From the NCBI GenBank assembly GCA_013001695.1, contig JABDMC010000158.1:1-33792 (forward strand): a DNA stretch of 33,792 nucleotides. The letters run 5' to 3'. The notes beneath the pieces were generated by a model. That model was not told where the DNA came from. It did no database searches and saw only the letters and a list, made by a program, of their open reading frames with translations. Shown piece by piece: positions 14,269 to 22,251 of this stretch. The DNA comes from Akkermansiaceae bacterium (GTDB lineage: Bacteria; Verrucomicrobiota; Verrucomicrobiia; Verrucomicrobiales; Akkermansiaceae). Each line of letters starts with the position of its first letter. The stretch's first letter is position 1. Made by a program: the position numbers and the translations under genes.

Positions 14269-14374
14269 CCCTCCCGCATGGGAATCCGGGAACGTCCCGC
14301 ACGCCCGTCGATCGAACGCCCCGCGGGCCTCATGCCCCTTGCGCCGTGCCGCTCCGGACCCTAGGTTCTCCGGC

Positions 14375-16225
14375 GTGCGCGGGCTCCTTGCCATTTCCCT
14401 CCTTGTTCTTCCCCTCGCCGCGGCGCCCGAGTTCGGCCGGGACGCGCGCCCCATCCTCGCGAAGTACTGCTTCTCCTGCCACGGCGAGGACAAGCAGGAA
14501 GCCGGCATCGAGTTCCACGAGATGACCAGCGACGAAGATGCCTTCCGGAAGCACCGGCTCCTGGAGCACATCGAACAGCAGGTCGCCGACGACGAGATGC
14601 CGCCGTTCGAGGCCGACGAGCAGCCCACCGAGGCGGAACGCGACCAGCTCCTCGCCGCGATCCGCCACCTCGTCGGACGCGTCGAGCGCGGCGAGGTGCC
14701 GAAAAACCCGGGACGCGTCACCATCCGGCGCCTGAACCGCAACGAGTACAACTACACCGTTCGCGACCTGTTCGGGATCAACTTCCTTCCGGGCCGCGAT
14801 TTCCCCGCCGACGGCGCGGGTGGCGAGGGCTTCGACAACACCGCCGACGCCCTCTTCCTCCCGCCGGTCCTCATGGAGAAGTACCTCGCCGCCGCGGACC
14901 GCGTCGTGGCGGCCCTCTACGCCAACCAGCGGCTCAGGCAGCGCATCCTGTTCGTCAAGCCGGAAGACAAGGTGACTCCCGAAGACGCGGCGCGACGCAT
15001 CCTGAACTACCACGGCGCCCTCGCCTTCCGCCGCCGTCTCACCGACGACGACCTCGCCCCGCTGGTGGCGGCGGTGACCACCGGCGTCGCCGCGGGGAAG
15101 TCCTTCGAGGAGGCCATGCAGGTCCCGTTGAAGGCCATCCTCGTCCACCCGCGCTTCCTGTTCCGCATCCAGCACGACGAGCAGGGCCGCGGCGAATGGC
15201 CGCTGGACGATTTCGAACTCGCGGCGCGCCTCTCCTATTTCCTCTGGTCGTCCATGCCCGACCGCGAACTCTTCCAACTCGCGGATGAGGGGAAGCTCCG
15301 GGACCCGGAGGTCCTGCGCGCCCAGGTGGCCCGCATGATCAAGAACCCGAAATCGAAGTCGTTCGCGCGCCACTTCGCCGGGCAATGGCTCGGTTTCGAC
15401 GACCTCATCGACCGCATCGAGCCCGACAAGGACCGCTTCCCCCGGTTCACCCGCACCCTGCGGGCCGCCATGTACCGCGAGTCGGAGCACTTCTTCGACC
15501 ACCTCATCCGGAACAACCGCCCGGTCACCGACCTCATTCATTCCGATTACACCTTCCTGAACGCCGAGCTCGCCCGCCACTACGGCATCGCGGGCGTGAC
15601 CGGCGCGGAGATGCGGAAGGTCCCGCTCACCGACCCCAACCGCGGGGGCGTCATCGGGATGGGAAGCGTCCTGACCGCAACCTCCCTCCCGCTGCGCACC
15701 AGCCCGGTGAAGCGCGGCAAGTGGATCCTCGAATCGATCCTCGGCGACCCTCCCCCGCCGCCGCTCCCCGACGCGGGCGAGCTCCCCGCCGACGACAAGT
15801 CGCCGGAGGGCCTCAGCTTCCGCCAGCGACTCGAGATCCACCGCCGCAAGCCGGAGTGCGCGTCATGCCACGCCCGGATCGATCCGCTCGGCTTCGGGCT
15901 GGAGAACTTCGACGCCATCGGCCGCTGGCGCACCCACGAGGTCAACGGCAAGCCGGTCGACTCCTCGGCGGTCCTCCCCGGCGACATCGCCTTCTCCACC
16001 CCCGCCGAGCTCAAGGAGCTTCTCATGGGCGCCAAGGACAAGGTCGCCCGGAACCTCTGCCGCAAGATGCTGGCCTACGCCCTCGGCCGTTCCCTCGAAT
16101 ACTACGATGAACCGGTCATCAACGGCCTCCTCCGGGTCCTGCAGCGCCACGACTACCGGATCGAGCCCCTCATCATCGCCATCGCGGAGTCCTACCCGTT
16201 CCAGAATCGCGGCGCCAGGCGGTGA
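14375..16225 (+). CDS. DUF1592/DUF1588 planctomycete-type cytochrome protein
   Basis: A secreted 616-aa protein with the full module order of this PVC family. Signal peptide (1-17), N-terminal cytochrome c-like domain with CFSCH at 32-36, DUF1587 (RLNRNEYNYTVRDLFG), DUF1595 (RRILNYHGALAFRRRL), DUF1592 (ILVHPRFLFRIQ and LSYFLWSSMPD), DUF1588 (GGVIGMGSVLTATSLPLRTS and CASCHARIDPLGFGLENFD, second haem site at 495-499) and DUF1585 to the end. Two covalent haems are therefore expected in the periplasm. The family is regularly paired with DUF1552; a role in oxidative breakdown of polymers has been proposed but not, to my knowledge, shown. The GTG at 14375 is chosen because the signal peptide begins there; the longer open frame would need a TTG and lacks a usable signal start. 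Its DUF1552 partner follows after an inverted gene. Confidence 0.93.
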   Translation: MRGLLAISLLVLPLAAAPEFGRDARPILAKYCFSCHGEDKQEAGIEFHEMTSDEDAFRKHRLLEHIEQQVADDEMPPFEADEQPTEAERDQLLAAIRHLVGRVERGEVPKNPGRVTIRRLNRNEYNYTVRDLFGINFLPGRDFPADGAGGEGFDNTADALFLPPVLMEKYLAAADRVVAALYANQRLRQRILFVKPEDKVTPEDAARRILNYHGALAFRRRLTDDDLAPLVAAVTTGVAAGKSFEEAMQVPLKAILVHPRFLFRIQHDEQGRGEWPLDDFELAARLSYFLWSSMPDRELFQLADEGKLRDPEVLRAQVARMIKNPKSKSFARHFAGQWLGFDDLIDRIEPDKDRFPRFTRTLRAAMYRESEHFFDHLIRNNRPVTDLIHSDYTFLNAELARHYGIAGVTGAEMRKVPLTDPNRGGVIGMGSVLTATSLPLRTSPVKRGKWILESILGDPPPPPLPDAGELPADDKSPEGLSFRQRLEIHRRKPECASCHARIDPLGFGLENFDAIGRWRTHEVNGKPVDSSAVLPGDIAFSTPAELKELLMGAKDKVARNLCRKMLAYALGRSLEYYDEPVINGLLRVLQRHDYRIEPLIIAIAESYPFQNRGARR

Positions 16226-16240
16226 CCGGGGCGCCGCGTC

Positions 16241-17143
16241 TCAGGCCCCGCCGGTGTTGAACGCCCGGGAGGCCTCCTCGATCACCTTCCGCTCCGGCAT
16301 CGGGCCGTCGATGATCAGGAACCGGTAGTTCACCTCGAGCGACTCCCCGTCGCTGATCTCCTTCTCGAAGAAGGAACCAAAGCGGCCATAGTTGCGGTAC
16401 GCCGAGTGCCGCGTCCCCTTGGGATTGTCGCGGTGGTTTATCTGCACCACGCTGTAGGTCTTGCCGTCGAGCACGTAGGTTTCCGCAATCCACGGAAGAT
16501 CGCGGTCCTTCTTCAGGTTCACGTCGTCGTCCGGAAAGAAGTAGGCCGTCTTCTTCACGTCCACCGTATCCGCCGGCCGGTACTGGATGCCGGCGTGCTC
16601 CGGATCCCCCTTCAGGGATACGTCCCCGTGGTTCGCCGCCAGGACACTCCGGAAATCGATCACCACGCGGGCCGGCCCCTTCTTCGGCTCGTGCACCACC
16701 ATGGTGCGGGTCTCCTCGAGAAACGGCTTCTCCCCGTCGTCGTGCCAGTGCGTCTTCGACACGATCGAGGCCCGGTTGCCGGCCGCCTCGTTGCCGGCGA
16801 ACTCCTGGTGCACGATGTCGCCGCCCTTCATGTGCCAGCGGTCGTGCCTCTTCCCTGCGAACTCGATTTTGCTCCACCCGATGAAGATCCCGCGGTGATG
16901 GGTGAACCGCCCGCCCGCTCCCTTCGTGATCGGCTTCTTCCCCTCGGCGTCGAAGACGTGCAGGTACGGCTTGTAGGTCTCGTGGTGCCGCTCCGGCGTC
17001 GAGGTGTCGTGCGCGTACATGTAGCGCACCAGCACCTTGCCGTCCGAGACGACATCGAGATGCTTCCCGGCCTCGTCGACGATCTCGAGATCCGCAAACA
17101 ACGGGGGGGCGAGGGCAAGGAGGGCAAGGGTCGTGAGTCGCAT
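16241..17143 (-). CDS. PmoA-family (DUF6807) secreted protein
   Basis: A protein of 300 aa with a signal peptide (MRLTTLALLALAPPLFA). The body is beta-rich and matches what I know as the PmoA-like/DUF6807 family: YLHVFDAEGKKPITKG, FTHHRGIFIGWSKIEF, DIVHQEFAG and AYRNYGRFGSFFEKEI. The name PmoA in annotations is misleading, since this is not methane monooxygenase. These proteins are frequent in PVC genomes near sugar oxidoreductases and DUF1080 proteins and may act on or bind glycans; the activity is not established. The gene lies between the DUF1592 and DUF1552 genes in opposite orientation, converging on the former (15 bp between stops) and diverging from the latter (136 bp). ATG 17143 is chosen for the signal peptide. 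Confidence 0.85.
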   Translation of the reverse strand: MRLTTLALLALAPPLFADLEIVDEAGKHLDVVSDGKVLVRYMYAHDTSTPERHHETYKPYLHVFDAEGKKPITKGAGGRFTHHRGIFIGWSKIEFAGKRHDRWHMKGGDIVHQEFAGNEAAGNRASIVSKTHWHDDGEKPFLEETRTMVVHEPKKGPARVVIDFRSVLAANHGDVSLKGDPEHAGIQYRPADTVDVKKTAYFFPDDDVNLKKDRDLPWIAETYVLDGKTYSVVQINHRDNPKGTRHSAYRNYGRFGSFFEKEISDGESLEVNYRFLIIDGPMPERKVIEEASRAFNTGGA

Positions 17144-17210
17144 GGCTTGCCACCATACCGGACATTTCGCCCCCGCTTTCAAGCCATTCCGGCCGCCACT
17201 CCAAATTCGC

Positions 17211-17238
17211 TCGAAATCCGGCCCGATCCGCCGATACT
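17211..17238 (+). promoter_or_regulatory. Candidate promoter for the DUF1552 gene
   Basis: In the 136-bp divergent region, TCGAAA (17211-17216) and GATACT (17233-17238) are 16 nt apart and would place transcription start near 17245, about 35 nt before ATG 17280. A weaker minus-strand pair (TTGAAA at 17177-17182 and TATGGT at 17152-17157, 19-nt spacer) could serve the PmoA-like gene. Both are pattern matches only. Confidence 0.2.
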
Positions 17239-17279
17239 TTCCCGCGGGAGTCCCCGATCACCCGCAACCCGCCCCTCCG

Positions 17280-18680
17280 ATGGCCAACATCCAGAGCAAC
17301 CAGTGGCAGATCTCCCGGCGCACCATGCTGCGGGGCGCCGGGGCCACCATGGCCCTCCCGTTTCTCGAGGCCATGCAGCCCCTCGCCGCGGCCCCGGCCG
17401 GCGGCAGCGTGCCGGTCCGGATGGCCTGCCTCTTCATGCCGAACGGCGTGCGCTCCGACAAGTGGACCCCCGAGGGCGGCAACAACATGAAGCTCTCGCC
17501 GATCCTCAAGCCCCTCGAAGCGGTCAAGGACGACATCCTCGTCCTGTCCGGGCTCTCCAACAAGGGGTCCTTCACCGGCGACGGGCACTACGTGAAGACC
17601 TCCGGCTGGCTCACCGGCACCACCATCACCAAGACCACCGGCAGCGACATCAATTGCAACGGCATCTCCATGGACCAGGTCGCCGCGGCCCAGATCGGCC
17701 AGGACACCAAGCTCCCGTCAATGGAACTCGGCTGCGAACCGACCGCCGGCGGGGTCGACACCAACGTCAATTACACCCGCCTCTACGCGTCGCACATCGC
17801 ATGGAAGAAGCCCACCGTCCCCCTCCCGTGCGAGATCAACCCGCGGATCGCCTTCGACCGGCTCTTCCGGAGCCGCTCCCGGCAGGGCAGCCGCCAGGCC
17901 GCCGACGACAAGTCGGTCCTCGACCTCGTCTCGTCGGATGCGAAACGCCTCCAGGGGAAACTCGGCAAGGCCGACCAGCAGAAGCTCGATGAATACCTCG
18001 AGAGCATCCGCGAGGTCGAACGCCGCATCGAACACGAGGCCAACCAGCTCGGCGGCGGCGAAAACCTCCCGCCCGAGATCCTCGCCAACATGGACGCCCT
18101 CGACAAGCGCATCTCCAAAGCGATGGGCAAGGCGAGCCGCGAGGAGGAACTGAATTCCCGCCCGCGCCTCGACCACACCGAGCACGTGCGCCTCATGATG
18201 GATATCATGGTGCTCGGATTCTGGTCGGACTCCACCCGGGTCTCGACGTTCATGTTCGGCAACGCCGTCAGCGGCCGCAATTTCTCGTTCCTCGAGGGCG
18301 TCGACGGGTCGCACCACTCGATATCCCACCATACCGGGAACCAGAAGCAGCTCGACCAGTACCAGCGCATCAACACCTGGCACGTCGCCCAGTACGCCTA
18401 CATGCTGGAACGCATGAAGGAGATCAAGGAGGGCGCGGGCACCCTGCTCGATCATTCCATGGTCCTCTTCGGTTCCGGGATCCGCGACGGCAACAGCCAC
18501 AACCCGCGCAACGTCCCGATCGTGCTCGCCGGCAACGCCAAGGGGCAGATCCGCACCGGCCGGCATCTCGAGTGCGGCGCGGGAACGCCGCTCTGCAGCC
18601 TCTACAAGGGGATGCTCAAGCGCGTCGGCGCCAAGGTCGGCCCCTTCGGCGACGCCACGGCGGAACTGCGCAACCTCTAG
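17280..18680 (+). CDS. DUF1552 Tat-exported protein
   Basis: A protein of 466 aa, typical for DUF1552. A twin-arginine signal is visible at the N-terminus (SRRTMLRGAGATMALPFLE), so it should be exported folded, perhaps with a cofactor. Family motifs include FMPNGVRSDKWTPEGGN near residue 54 and a C-terminal GSGIRDGNSHNPRNVPIVLAG region. In PVC genomes DUF1552 is nearly always next to a DUF1592 protein, and here the partner lies upstream across the inverted PmoA-like gene. The biochemical role is unknown; cooperation in extracytoplasmic oxidation is speculation. ATG 17280 is used because the Tat signal begins there. The UGA-containing gene starts 37 bp after its stop on the same strand and may share its transcript. 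Confidence 0.92.
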   Translation: MANIQSNQWQISRRTMLRGAGATMALPFLEAMQPLAAAPAGGSVPVRMACLFMPNGVRSDKWTPEGGNNMKLSPILKPLEAVKDDILVLSGLSNKGSFTGDGHYVKTSGWLTGTTITKTTGSDINCNGISMDQVAAAQIGQDTKLPSMELGCEPTAGGVDTNVNYTRLYASHIAWKKPTVPLPCEINPRIAFDRLFRSRSRQGSRQAADDKSVLDLVSSDAKRLQGKLGKADQQKLDEYLESIREVERRIEHEANQLGGGENLPPEILANMDALDKRISKAMGKASREEELNSRPRLDHTEHVRLMMDIMVLGFWSDSTRVSTFMFGNAVSGRNFSFLEGVDGSHHSISHHTGNQKQLDQYQRINTWHVAQYAYMLERMKEIKEGAGTLLDHSMVLFGSGIRDGNSHNPRNVPIVLAGNAKGQIRTGRHLECGAGTPLCSLYKGMLKRVGAKVGPFGDATAELRNL

Positions 18681-18717: not shown

Positions 18718-19905
18718 ATGAAACCACTGCCCGTTCTCCTTCTCCTCGCCGCCCCGGCGCCGGCCGCCCCGGAAGACCAGGTCCCCGGGGCCGGCAACCT
18801 CCGGGCGTGGATCGACCACGTCCGCCCGGCGGAGTCCGAGCGCGGCTGGGAAGCGATCCCGTGGCGCAACGGGTTCCTGCGGGGGGTCGAGGAGGCGAAG
18901 CGCCTCGAGCGCCCCGTCCTCCTGTGGACCATGAACGGCAACCCCTGCGGGGAAACCTGAAACAACGGGGTTGCGGGACGTCGCGAGGTCTGGTCAGACC
19001 CGCGCATCCAGGAGATCGCCGCCGAGTTCGTCTGCTGCACCGACGAATGCGACATCCTCTTTCCGCGCAACGGTTACCTCCTTGAAAAACTCAAGGACGA
19101 TCCGGCTGTGCACCTGTTCCGCGATGTGTTCGGCAGGCAGGTGCCGCCGGCGCAATGGGACCCGGATCCCTCCGTCACCCGCCAGGGCGTTTACTGCATG
19201 ATGCCCGACGGCACCTATCTCGGGGCCAAGCATGCCGGCGCGTGGAGCGGACACGTCCTCCCGCTCCTCCGGGAGGCACAGCAGCGCTGGCTGCGCATCA
19301 AGGAGCAGCGCGGCCTCCACCCGAAGCCCATCCCCCGCCAACGGCCGATGCAACAGTGGATCGCGGAGCGCGCCGGCAAGGCGGGCCTGCTGCTCGCCCT
19401 GCACTACCGCGACCTCCCGCGCGGGGAGGACACCGACCGCGACGGCGGCCGCATCGGCGAATCATGGAACCGGCGCTGGATGGAACTGGACCGGGAGGAA
19501 GCCCGCGCCCTCGTCCCCGAGACCCGCGAGTGGCAGGCGGTGCCCGCGTCCCTGGCGAGGCGCCTGGCCCGCATGGAACTGAAGGATATCGTCCACGGCC
19601 AGAGCCCGGAGTGGTCGGACCAGCACGTCCGGAAGTCCGCCCTCCGGGTGCGGAGAACGGGCGAACAGGGCGGGGTGGTCACGATCGAGCTCCGCGGCGA
19701 TTTCGACCTGCGCGACGGGAAGCGCCGTTTCCGGCCCGCGTTGTACGGCGAGGCGGTCTTCGATTCCAACACCGGGCGCTTCACGTCCTTCCAGGCCTTC
19801 GCGGCCGGTCCCCGCACCGGCGGGACGACCTACAATTTCCGCGGGAAGGACCCGGGCCCCGCCCCGCTCGGTATTTCGCTGGTCATGGAGGACGGCCGCC
19901 CCTGA
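18718..19905 (+). CDS. Candidate selenoprotein, thioredoxin-like, in-frame UGA at codon 81
   Basis: One open frame of 395 codons interrupted only by TGA at 18958-18960. Codons 1-80 start with a signal-like segment (MKPLPVLLLLAAPAPAAP) and reach a thioredoxin-like strand and redox site, RPVLLWTMNGNPCGET, then UGA, then NNGVAGRREVWSDP and FVCCTDEC in the same frame. The UGA would be Sec81, with Cys77 four residues before it. A hairpin at 18976-19009 with a GGUC loop lies just downstream and fits a bacterial SECIS. The C-terminal half (about residue 280 on) looks beta-rich and is not recognised. No frameshift is present and GC-rich third positions continue on both sides, which argues against a decayed gene; a sequencing error or a genuine nonsense mutation remains possible. 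If UGA is read as stop, the products would be an 80-aa peptide and an orphan downstream frame. It lies 37 bp after DUF1552 and 56 bp before a sulfatase. Confidence 0.7.
18976..19009 (+). promoter_or_regulatory. Candidate bacterial SECIS hairpin
   Basis: Directly downstream of the in-frame UGA (18958-18960). The upper stem is GGTCT (18987-18991) with AGACC (18996-19000), loop GGTC (18992-18995). It continues through a single bulged A (18986) into CGCG (18982-18985) with CGCG (19001-19004), 9 bp in all. A weaker lower stem runs out to 18976 and 19009. The loop begins 31 nt after the UGA, and its first two bases are G. Both match general rules for bacterial SECIS elements (loop 16-37 nt from UGA, G at the start of the loop). 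From memory, the E. coli fdhF SECIS also has a GGUC-containing loop and a bulge in the upper stem. Confidence 0.6.
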
Positions 19906-19961
19906 GCGGGACGAAGTTTCCCCTTTTGATCGCGGCGGCGTGCGGCTAGAACCCGCCATTG

Positions 19962-21452
19962 ATGAAAGCGCCGTTCATTCTCCTCGCCGCGTGTTTCGCG
20001 ATCATGGCCCCGTCGGTTTCGGCGCGACCCAACGTGGTCTTCTTTCTCGTCGATGACCTCGGGGTCATGGACCTCGGGTGTTACAACCCGGAAACCTTCT
20101 ACGAAACGCCGAACTGCGACAAGATCGCCGCCTCGGGGTGCCGGTTCACGAACGGCTACGCGGCCAACCCGGTGTGCTCGCCGACCCGTTACTCGATCAT
20201 GACCGGCAAGTACCCGTCGCGCCCGGATGCCACCAACTTCTTCGCGGGCCGGCGCGAGGGCCGGTTCAAGCCGGCGCCGTTGCACGACCGCATGGACCTC
20301 GACGAGGTCACCCTCGCGGAGGCCCTGCAGGAGGCGGGATACAAGACCTGCTTCGCCGGCAAGTGGCACCTCGGCCCCACCGAGGAGTTCTGGCCCGAGA
20401 ACCAGGGATTCGACGTCAACATCGGCGGACACAACCGCGGGTCCCCGCCGGGCGGCTACTTCGCGCCCTACACGAACCCGCGCCTCCCGAGCGGACCGAA
20501 GGGCGAGCACCTCCCGGAACGCCTCGCCCGGGAATCGATCAGGTTCATCGAGGACAACAAGGGCGGACCGTTCCTGCTCTACCTCTCGTTTTACTCGGTG
20601 CACACCCCCCTGCAGGGGCGGCCGGAGCTGATCGAAAAATACACCCGCAAGGCGGCCGCCCTCCCGGCTCCCGATGCCGTGCCGGAATTCGCCGACGAGG
20701 AGCAGATCTGGCACAAGGCCGCCAAGGCGCGCGGCGGCGGGAAAGCCGGCTCCCCCGCCCCGCCGCGCAAGGTGCGGGTCCGCCAGCGCCACGCGACCTA
20801 CGCCGCCATGATGGAGTCCATGGACACCGCCGTCGGCCGGGTGCTCGACGCCCTCGAGTCACACGGCCTCGCCGGCAACACCATCGTCTGCTTCATGTCG
20901 GACAACGGCGGACTCTCCACGTCGGAAGGCAGCCCCACCTCCAACCTTCCCTTCCGGGGCGGGAAGGGGTGGCTCTACGAGGGCGGCATCCGCGAACCCT
21001 TCATGATCTCCGCGCCCGGCGTCACCACGCCGAACTCGGTGTGCGACGTGCCGGTGACCTCGACCGACTTCTACCCGACCCTCCTCGAACTGGCGGGCCT
21101 CGAACCCCGCCCGAAGCAGCACCTCGACGGACTCAGCCTCGTTCCCCTCCTCAAGAACCCCTCCGCCACCGTCGGCCGCAAGGCCCTTTACTGGCACTAC
21201 CCGCACTATTCGAATCAAGGGGGATTCCCCGGCGGCGCCATCCGCATCGGCGACTACAAGCTCATCGAGCGCTACGAAGACGGCCGCACCCACCTCTACA
21301 ACCTCGCCAAGGACCCCGGGGAGCGCTTCGACCTCGCCGAGAAGCTCCCCGACCGCGTCCAGTCGATGCGCCCCAAGCTCCACGCCTGGTACACCGACGT
21401 CGACGCCAAGTTCCTCCAGGCGAAGGACGGGAATACACCGTGGCGCCCCTGA
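19962..21452 (+). CDS. Secreted S1-family sulfatase
   Basis: Hydrolyses sulfate esters outside the cytoplasm. The 496-aa protein has a signal peptide ending near SVSA (residue 21). It has the S1 signature CSPTRYSIMTGKYP with Cys72, which must be converted to formylglycine, plus metal-binding Asp31-Asp32 (FFLVDDLG), GKWHLGP and MSDNGG. The C-terminal LYNLAKDPGERFDLAEKL motif is intact, so the gene is complete. ATG 19962 is preferred to the overlapping TTG at 19959. It starts 56 bp after the UGA-containing gene and ends just before a block of REP-like repeats. Its substrate cannot be told from sequence by eye; a sulfated polysaccharide is likely. No sulfatase-modifying enzyme is in the window. 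Confidence 0.93.
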   Translation: MKAPFILLAACFAIMAPSVSARPNVVFFLVDDLGVMDLGCYNPETFYETPNCDKIAASGCRFTNGYAANPVCSPTRYSIMTGKYPSRPDATNFFAGRREGRFKPAPLHDRMDLDEVTLAEALQEAGYKTCFAGKWHLGPTEEFWPENQGFDVNIGGHNRGSPPGGYFAPYTNPRLPSGPKGEHLPERLARESIRFIEDNKGGPFLLYLSFYSVHTPLQGRPELIEKYTRKAAALPAPDAVPEFADEEQIWHKAAKARGGGKAGSPAPPRKVRVRQRHATYAAMMESMDTAVGRVLDALESHGLAGNTIVCFMSDNGGLSTSEGSPTSNLPFRGGKGWLYEGGIREPFMISAPGVTTPNSVCDVPVTSTDFYPTLLELAGLEPRPKQHLDGLSLVPLLKNPSATVGRKALYWHYPHYSNQGGFPGGAIRIGDYKLIERYEDGRTHLYNLAKDPGERFDLAEKLPDRVQSMRPKLHAWYTDVDAKFLQAKDGNTPWRP

Positions 21453-21455
21453 GCG

Positions 21456-21552
21456 GCGGTTCTCGTGGCCCTTCAGGCCACCGCCCACCCCCGTGACCGA
21501 AGGGACCCCGGCCTGAAGGCCGGGGCTCCGGTATCACGGCCCTTCAGGCCGT
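21456..21552 (+). repeat. 97-bp REP-like repeat, copy 1
   Basis: Nearly identical (94 of 97 bases by eye) to 22155-22251 in the same orientation, so the two copies bracket the RAYT gene. It contains three palindromes: GTGGCC/GGCCAC around CTTCA, CCCCGGCC/GGCCGGGG around TGAA, and ACGGCC/GGCCGT around CTTCA. It begins 3 bp after the sulfatase stop, so its first hairpins may also end that transcript. Confidence 0.9.
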
Positions 21553-21622
21553 TGGCCATCGCTACGAAAGCGCCGTCGTCCAGGCCGGTGGCCATGGTTC
21601 CGGGAGTACGGTCGTTCACGGG

Positions 21623-21686
21623 GCGGGCTGGAGGCCCGCGACATCACAGCCCCGGCCTTCAGGCCGGGGTGGTCCGCGAGAACCGC
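21623..21686 (-). repeat. Inverted REP-like palindromes left of the RAYT gene
   Basis: Contains GCGGGC/GCCCGC (21623-21639) and a perfect 8-bp hairpin CCCCGGCC-TTCA-GGCCGGGG (21650-21669), then CGAGAACCGC (21677-21686). The last 10 nt are the exact reverse complement of the first 10 nt of the 97-bp repeat (22155-22164). The RAYT gene is thus also framed by inverted copies of the REP start. Its stop is 5 bp further on. Confidence 0.8.
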
Positions 21687-22164
21687 ACGCTCAATCCCAC
21701 ACGTATCGCTCGTCGTATTCCACCCCGCGCTCAGCCAGGAACCTTCGAAATTCCTCCTTGAAGGTGACCACCTTGTGATGCTCGGCCTGCTTCGCCACGT
21801 ACTGCGTCACGGTTTCCACATTCGATGCATCGACCGAAAACGCCCCGTAGCCGCCCTGCCACCCGAATCCCGCCAGCATCGGAAACTGTTCCTTCACCCA
21901 CTTCGAACTCTGCCCCTTGATCTCCCCCACGACTTTGCTCGGAACCTTGTTCTTCGAGGCCCGGTAAAGGAGGTGCACATGGTCGAAATGCCCGCCTACC
22001 TTGATGGCGGGGCTGTCCTGGGCGTTGAGGGCGCCCGCGAGGTACGGAAACAACTTGTCCTGCACCTCTGCCGACAACCACGGCTCCCGGTTCTTCGTGC
22101 TGAAGATCAGGTGGACGTAGAATTGCGTGAGGGATTGCGGCAAGGGAAGGAATTGCGGTTCTCG
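21677..22164 (-). mobile_element. RAYT/REP unit with 10-bp inverted ends
   Basis: The interval from CGAGAACCGC (21677-21686) to GCGGTTCTCG (22155-22164) is bounded by a perfect 10-bp inverted repeat and holds only the IS200-like transposase gene. REP-type hairpins lie immediately outside both ends. This is the arrangement expected of a REP-associated tyrosine transposase with its substrate palindromes. No target-site duplication is expected for this mechanism. The exact cleavage points cannot be read by eye. Confidence 0.6.
21691..22143 (-). CDS. REP-associated tyrosine transposase (IS200-like, Y1_Tnp)
   Basis: A 150-aa single-strand DNA transposase of the HUH superfamily. From the TTG at 22143 the protein starts MPQSLTQFYVHLIFSTKNRE, the standard start of this family. 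The HUH motif is HVH (His55, His57) in GGHFDHVHLLYR, and the nucleophilic tyrosine is probably Tyr115 in TVTQYVAKQAEHH. The remaining family features, KGQSSKWVKE and GWQGGYGAFSVD, are present and the length is complete, so it may be active. A longer reading frame from 22236 would run through the 97-bp repeat and is rejected. No Shine-Dalgarno sequence is seen before the TTG. The flanking REP-like palindromes are its likely substrates; such genes are usually single copy and domesticated. Confidence 0.92.
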   Translation of the reverse strand: MPQSLTQFYVHLIFSTKNREPWLSAEVQDKLFPYLAGALNAQDSPAIKVGGHFDHVHLLYRASKNKVPSKVVGEIKGQSSKWVKEQFPMLAGFGWQGGYGAFSVDASNVETVTQYVAKQAEHHKVVTFKEEFRRFLAERGVEYDERYVWD

Positions 22165-22251
22165 TGGCCCTTCAGGCCACCGCTCACCCCCGTGACCGAA
22201 GGGACCCCGGCCTGAAGGCCGGGGCTTTGGTATCACGGCCCTTCAGGCCGT
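22155..22251 (+). repeat. 97-bp REP-like repeat, copy 2
   Basis: Same orientation and order of palindromes as copy 1 at 21456-21552. Three substitutions are visible: C to T in the CCGC(C/T)CACCC segment, and CC to TT after the GGCCGGGGCT hairpin. It begins 11 bp upstream of the RAYT start codon, so it may carry or influence that gene's promoter. Confidence 0.9.

Follow-up and report, generated by a model that had tools for sequence, protein, structure and literature searches.

A conserved GGUC hairpin behind an in-frame UGA as the probable selenocysteine signal of a thioredoxin-fold protein family in Akkermansiaceae

The window analyzed here is a stretch of 33,792 nucleotides from an Akkermansiaceae bacterium (assembly GCA_013001695.1, contig JABDMC010000158.1, positions 1 to 33,792, forward strand), and it contains a candidate selenoprotein gene in which standard gene calling terminates at an internal UGA. 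Past this codon the frame continues for 314 further codons to a TGA at 19903-19905, and the product read through it has 395 aa, with putative selenocysteine (Sec) at residue 81 (U81). The features of the gene are as follows.

18718-19905, plus strand: candidate selenoprotein gene, delimited by the frame open through the TGA, homologue similarity on both sides of it and a predicted fold
18946-18948, plus strand: codon of Cys77, near invariant in clade A and the likely redox partner of Sec81 (CxxxU)
18958-18960, plus strand: UGA codon, putatively selenocysteine U81, in a genome with Sec machinery
18982-19004, plus strand: full hairpin as drawn by the first-pass annotation, with a lower 4 bp (18982-18985/19001-19004) and A18986 bulged, from a computed fold
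18987-19000, plus strand: conserved putative SECIS hairpin, 5 bp (18987-18991/18996-19000) around the loop GGUC (18992-18995), from RNAalifold, covariation and a synonymous null
18994-18996, plus strand: TCA codon for Ser, invariant in clade A, whose A18996 pairs with U18991 and closes the loop

Upstream (14339-18680) are a gene for a planctomycete-type cytochrome with PSD/PSCyt domains and a DUF1552 gene, and on the other flank (19959-21452) is a sulfatase gene. A conserved operon was considered and rejected, as the flanking genes differ at three homologous loci (L067, L069 and L070). Further along, at 21506-22250, three matches to the Acido-Lenti-1 RNA (Rfam RF01687) flank an IS200-like Y1 transposase gene (21694-22236, minus strand), with a 97-nt direct repeat of 97% identity on each side of the transposase gene. 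This organization resembles a mobile element of the REP/RAYT type and, if it is one, Acido-Lenti-1 would be a palindrome tied to a transposon and not an independent sRNA.

Comparison with homologues bears directly on how the UGA is read. Homologous sites were extracted with a pattern that did not fix the Sec residue, and the aligned residue was U, encoded by TGA, in all 84 distinct sites once they were extracted and translated; the site pattern in homologues is W-x(2,3)-G-x-P-x(4)-U-[NQ]-N-G. Every listed match spanning the site contains TGA, both in the search of 142 relatives and in that of 386 genomes of the order, and protein similarity extends on both sides of it. The family was found in 73 of the 386 sampled genomes of the order and none was seen outside the order in a phylum sample, while two Planctomycetota records have the same UGA arrangement. 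The genome of the window itself holds a second family member, of clade B (G000:C377:2964-4142), with its own TGA and a hairpin placed differently. That the UGA might be a normal stop codon, or a nonsense mutation of recent origin, with the hairpin a chance fold in GC-rich sequence, would agree with the behavior of standard gene calling and with an unremarkable folding energy (see below), but it is contradicted by a TGA at the same codon in all 84 sites, many of them in proteins with only 30-50% identity, and by the conservation of coding sequence beyond the UGA; we consider this explanation already refuted and give it practically no weight.

The genome also encodes what would be needed to insert selenocysteine. 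A tRNA-Sec (69.8 bits) with anticodon UCA (ARAGORN) is present, together with SelA (482 bits), SelB (285.7 bits; cut-off 242.25) and SelD (378 bits; G000:C106, L137). Across the 142 relatives, a selA match occurs in 34 of the 36 that carry the family versus 30 of the 106 that do not (Fisher p = 8e-13, an optimistic value because related genomes are not independent), and the two family-bearing genomes without selA are 70% and 83% complete. The selD gene is itself interrupted in frame by a TGA, within the motif CAGUASK, and the stem-loop CUCGCGCA-GGUCU-UGCGCGGG comes ~32 nt further downstream (a distance taken from the printed sequence); selD therefore probably encodes a selenoprotein as well. 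The loop of the E. coli fdhF element is similar to this one. The SelD gene thus resembles the window gene in having an in-frame TGA and then a GGUC-containing loop at nearly the same distance, but its protein is unrelated and its stem is longer. Readthrough by itself would account for the open frame, and one could imagine the UGA being decoded without any SECIS, as Trp or by a near-cognate tRNA. We judge this very improbable, since Trp is encoded by UGG (18991-18993), a codon fixed in clade A, since the genome holds a complete Sec system and selA tends to be present where the family is, and since three clades show selection on a SECIS-legal hairpin.

Attention to the hairpin itself came from a reading of the window sequence alone, which had proposed a SECIS-like element with a GGUC loop 31 nt after the UGA, a 9-bp upper stem with one bulged A, and a fit to published bacterial rules. 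Fold and coordinates bear out the geometry: the GGUC loop sits exactly 31 nt after the UGA, and the stem totals 9 bp (18982-18985 and 18987-18991 against 18996-19004). Compared with the bacterial SECIS rules (PMC13188914), the distance from UGA to apical loop lies within the permitted 16-37 nt, the upper stem (permitted range, 4-16 bp) has 5 conserved pairs and 9 bp in the window sequence, the loop is GGUC in 17 of 17 clade A sequences, and the structure is kept by compensatory change. The likeness to bacterial elements thus comprises a hairpin within the coding region, a 4-nt loop starting with G, a distance of 31 nt and a stem of at least 5 bp; the differences are that no SECIS model of Rfam matches, either at the gathering threshold or at E up to 10, and that the distance in this family's sister clades may be 18, 22 or 31 nt.

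Thermodynamically, the window sequence gives nothing to separate this hairpin from its background. Its minimum free energy of −13.7 kcal/mol is well within the −7.5 kcal/mol rule, but so are 99.7% of synonymous shuffles (300 recodings drawn from the codon usage of the window), 134 of which hold a SECIS-legal hairpin of equal or greater stability, and the 66-nt region shows no extra folding stability over its own dinucleotide shuffles (z = −0.28). The expectation that the element would be more stable than shuffled controls therefore failed, and folding energy was dropped as evidence. Codon usage tells a more mixed story. The four codons singled out as disfavored, GTT, GGA, CGT and TCA, are indeed rare in the neighboring genes (4/103, 15/165, 4/151 and 3/100 among their respective synonymous codons), and the 12-codon window at 18961 is the 7th lowest among 383 in the gene; the suggestion that a constrained RNA structure explains this shift stands for TCA, which is conserved, and falls for GTT, GGA and CGT, which show no conservation in homologues and were rejected as SECIS-driven codons.

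What decides the matter is the comparative test, and a single-sequence test alone would fail this hairpin. Among the 17 closest homologues (clade A), pairing at the upper five positions of the stem holds in 97.6% of cells, whereas recoding each sequence synonymously by its own gene's codon usage gives 65.6% (sd 3.9, maximum 76.5); covariation in the upper stem is higher than in any of 500 column shuffles, and slid registers all fall far short. The lower four pairs, at 41% paired, are at chance, so that the conserved element is 5 bp plus GGUC and not the 9 bp first described, even though all nine pairs and the bulged A are present in the window. Serine in the hairpin is encoded by TCA in 17 of 17 clade A sequences, compared with 30 of the 295 Ser codons of clade A genes, and Val and Ile are always GTC and ATC. 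The Asp codon follows them, being GAC with Val-GTC (nine sequences) and GAT with Ile-ATC (six), with one exception each (15/17, Fisher p = 0.004). The covariation in homologues that was called for at the outset is thus present, and the proposal that the hairpin serves the UGA, which is no simple nonsense mutation, is upheld by the invariant UGA, the Sec machinery and a hairpin conserved with compensatory changes, although the arguments by which it was first reached are weaker than the conclusion, because energy does not discriminate, the lower stem is unconserved and the constraint takes in only one of the four rare codons.

The same codons could in principle be kept for the protein or for some other RNA signal, with the true SECIS elsewhere after the UGA. 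Clade A does conserve Trp, Ser and Asp at the amino acid level, and the sister-clade hairpins lie at 18 and 22 nt instead of 31, both of which would suit such a reading; but for a 54-nt stretch from the UGA, taken from the 17 clade A sequences, RNAalifold predicts the 5-bp GGUC-loop hairpin and no other, and protein constraint does not predict the coupling of GAC to GTC and of GAT to ATC, nor a TCA that is fixed despite commoner Ser codons. We hold a SECIS at some other position to be highly unlikely. The hairpin at 18987-19000 is very probably the signal by which the in-frame UGA of this thioredoxin-fold family would be read as selenocysteine.

Outside clade A, local sequence differs, and clades B and C each appear to carry an equivalent, SECIS-legal hairpin of their own. 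Clade B (60 sequences, motif P-L-G-C-[TV]-U) has its hairpin 18 nt after the UGA, with a 5-nt loop that is mostly AGGUU, CGUGA or CGUGC; pairing at its four inner positions holds in 99.6% of cells versus a synonymous expectation of 60%, and its stem shows G-C/C-G exchange between third codon positions. Clade C (five sequences, motif N-C-U) has the loop AGUU(G/C/A) at 22 nt, and two of its five stems are only partly paired in the 22-nt register. The two sequences of clade D (L051 and L127; motif GNPxGCTUNNGQR) keep the TGA, and their two-sequence consensus contains no clear SECIS-like hairpin. Relative to the invariant Sec, the partner Cys differs in position as well, at −4 in clade A, −2 in B and −1 in C, and one clade A member (L032) is without it. 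Evolutionarily, clades A, C and D are each confined to one side of a branch, with D placed among B; the deep branches are long, and the tree does not fix which way the SECIS moved.

Structurally, the protein consists of a hydrophobic N-terminus, a thioredoxin-fold domain at residues ~38-200 and a C-terminal beta-rich domain, as predicted by AlphaFold2 from a five-sequence alignment (mean pLDDT 77, pTM 0.70). Residues ~38-200 match 3f9u with a VIA-align Z of 11.8 (rmsd 2.6 over 109 residues), followed by 2lst (11.2), 1sen (11.1) and the C-terminal domain of DsbD (~8.9), while the Foldseek ranking is weaker (best E 3e-4) and sequence-profile searches of solved structures found none at E up to 1. 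In the model, Sec sits in a low-confidence loop that joins a strand (67-72) to a helix (82-92), which places it where thioredoxins carry their active-site Cys. The fold is thus predicted to be common to the exported domain of 3f9u and the C-terminal domain of DsbD, from which the window protein differs in that Sec replaces the CxxC pair, in its 8-18% identity, and in its extra C-terminal beta-rich domain. Judging from the hydrophobic N-terminus, the protein is probably exported, and fold and motif together suggest a likely role as a thiol/selenol oxidoreductase.

Taken together, we consider an exported thioredoxin-fold selenoprotein, with export itself probable, and with a GGUC hairpin bound by SelB and Sec inserted at the UGA, to be the best explanation of the locus, with a probability of about 0.95. 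Weighing against it are the unremarkable single-sequence fold, the failure to find a Cys orthologue or an Rfam SECIS match, and clade D with its lack of a clear hairpin. A ribosome reaching the UGA at 18958-18960 would have SelB, carrying Sec-tRNA-Sec (UCA), bound to the 5-bp GGUC hairpin 31 nt downstream, and delivery of selenocysteine by SelB would prevent termination. Lying inside the codons for VWSD(P), the hairpin would lead selection to fix GUC/AUC UGG UCA GAC/GAU, and Sec, together with its nearby Cys (CxxxU here), would probably be the redox-active residue.

No Pfam or NCBIfam model reaches its cut-off for this family. Thioredoxin_7 (PF13899, gathering cut-off 27 bits) scores 13.1 with the window protein and 23.8 with the best homologue, and NF041199 (curated cut-off 300 bits) scores at most 13.9 among homologues and does not match the window protein. 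The latter, a Trx7/PDZ (seleno)protein, is like this family in its Thioredoxin_7-like N-terminal domain and a Sec near a Cys; it differs in its motif, CxxU, where the family has CxxxU, CxU or CU, and its profile match to two clade A members is weak and covers ~60 residues. A 2026 review lists 119 prokaryotic selenoprotein families or subfamilies, with no CxxxU family among them and NF041199 as the nearest entry. The selenoprotein family thus appears to be new, with no entry in the selenoprotein catalogues and family libraries searchable here, and it may be named elsewhere.

For selenoproteins, homologues with Cys at the Sec position are the usual case, though not a universal one. Here, Cys orthologues were found neither in the genomes of the order nor in the phylum sample, and viral contigs yielded no relative. 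Two candidates were rejected. A distant paralogue in this genome (G000:C237) aligns a Cys with the Sec (hhalign probability 95.9%) and was not counted because its genus relatives carry Gly there, and the matches from one genus (g3, ~1e-7) came, at the two loci that were read, only from conventional CxxC thioredoxins. A genus-limited family of distant non-Sec paralogues (L149-L163) aligns over 68 columns and has the N-terminal domain in common; it has the motif E-[PAG]-C-[GC], with a conserved Cys one position before the Sec column and Gly in the Sec column of most members. We find it reasonably likely, short of confident, that this thioredoxin-fold family is effectively obligate for Sec, with no Cys orthologues and with SECIS elements at 31, 18 and 22 nt and partner Cys at −4, −2 and −1 in clades A, B and C arranged around an invariant Sec.

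The mechanism is already known; what is new is the family and the shift in SECIS position between sister clades. Routine gene prediction would end the genes of this family at the UGA, and methods that depend on Cys homologues would miss the family of the window, the authors of deep-Sep stating that their own tool misses families without Cys homologues (PMC12013277). If the family is indeed effectively obligate for Sec, it would be invisible to discovery based on Cys/Sec pairs and would show SECIS relocation within one gene family. One probable family is thereby added to the bacterial selenoproteome, and with it may come a natural series in which the SECIS moved between sister clades while Sec stayed fixed, one that would allow a direct test of the spacing tolerance of a single SelB.
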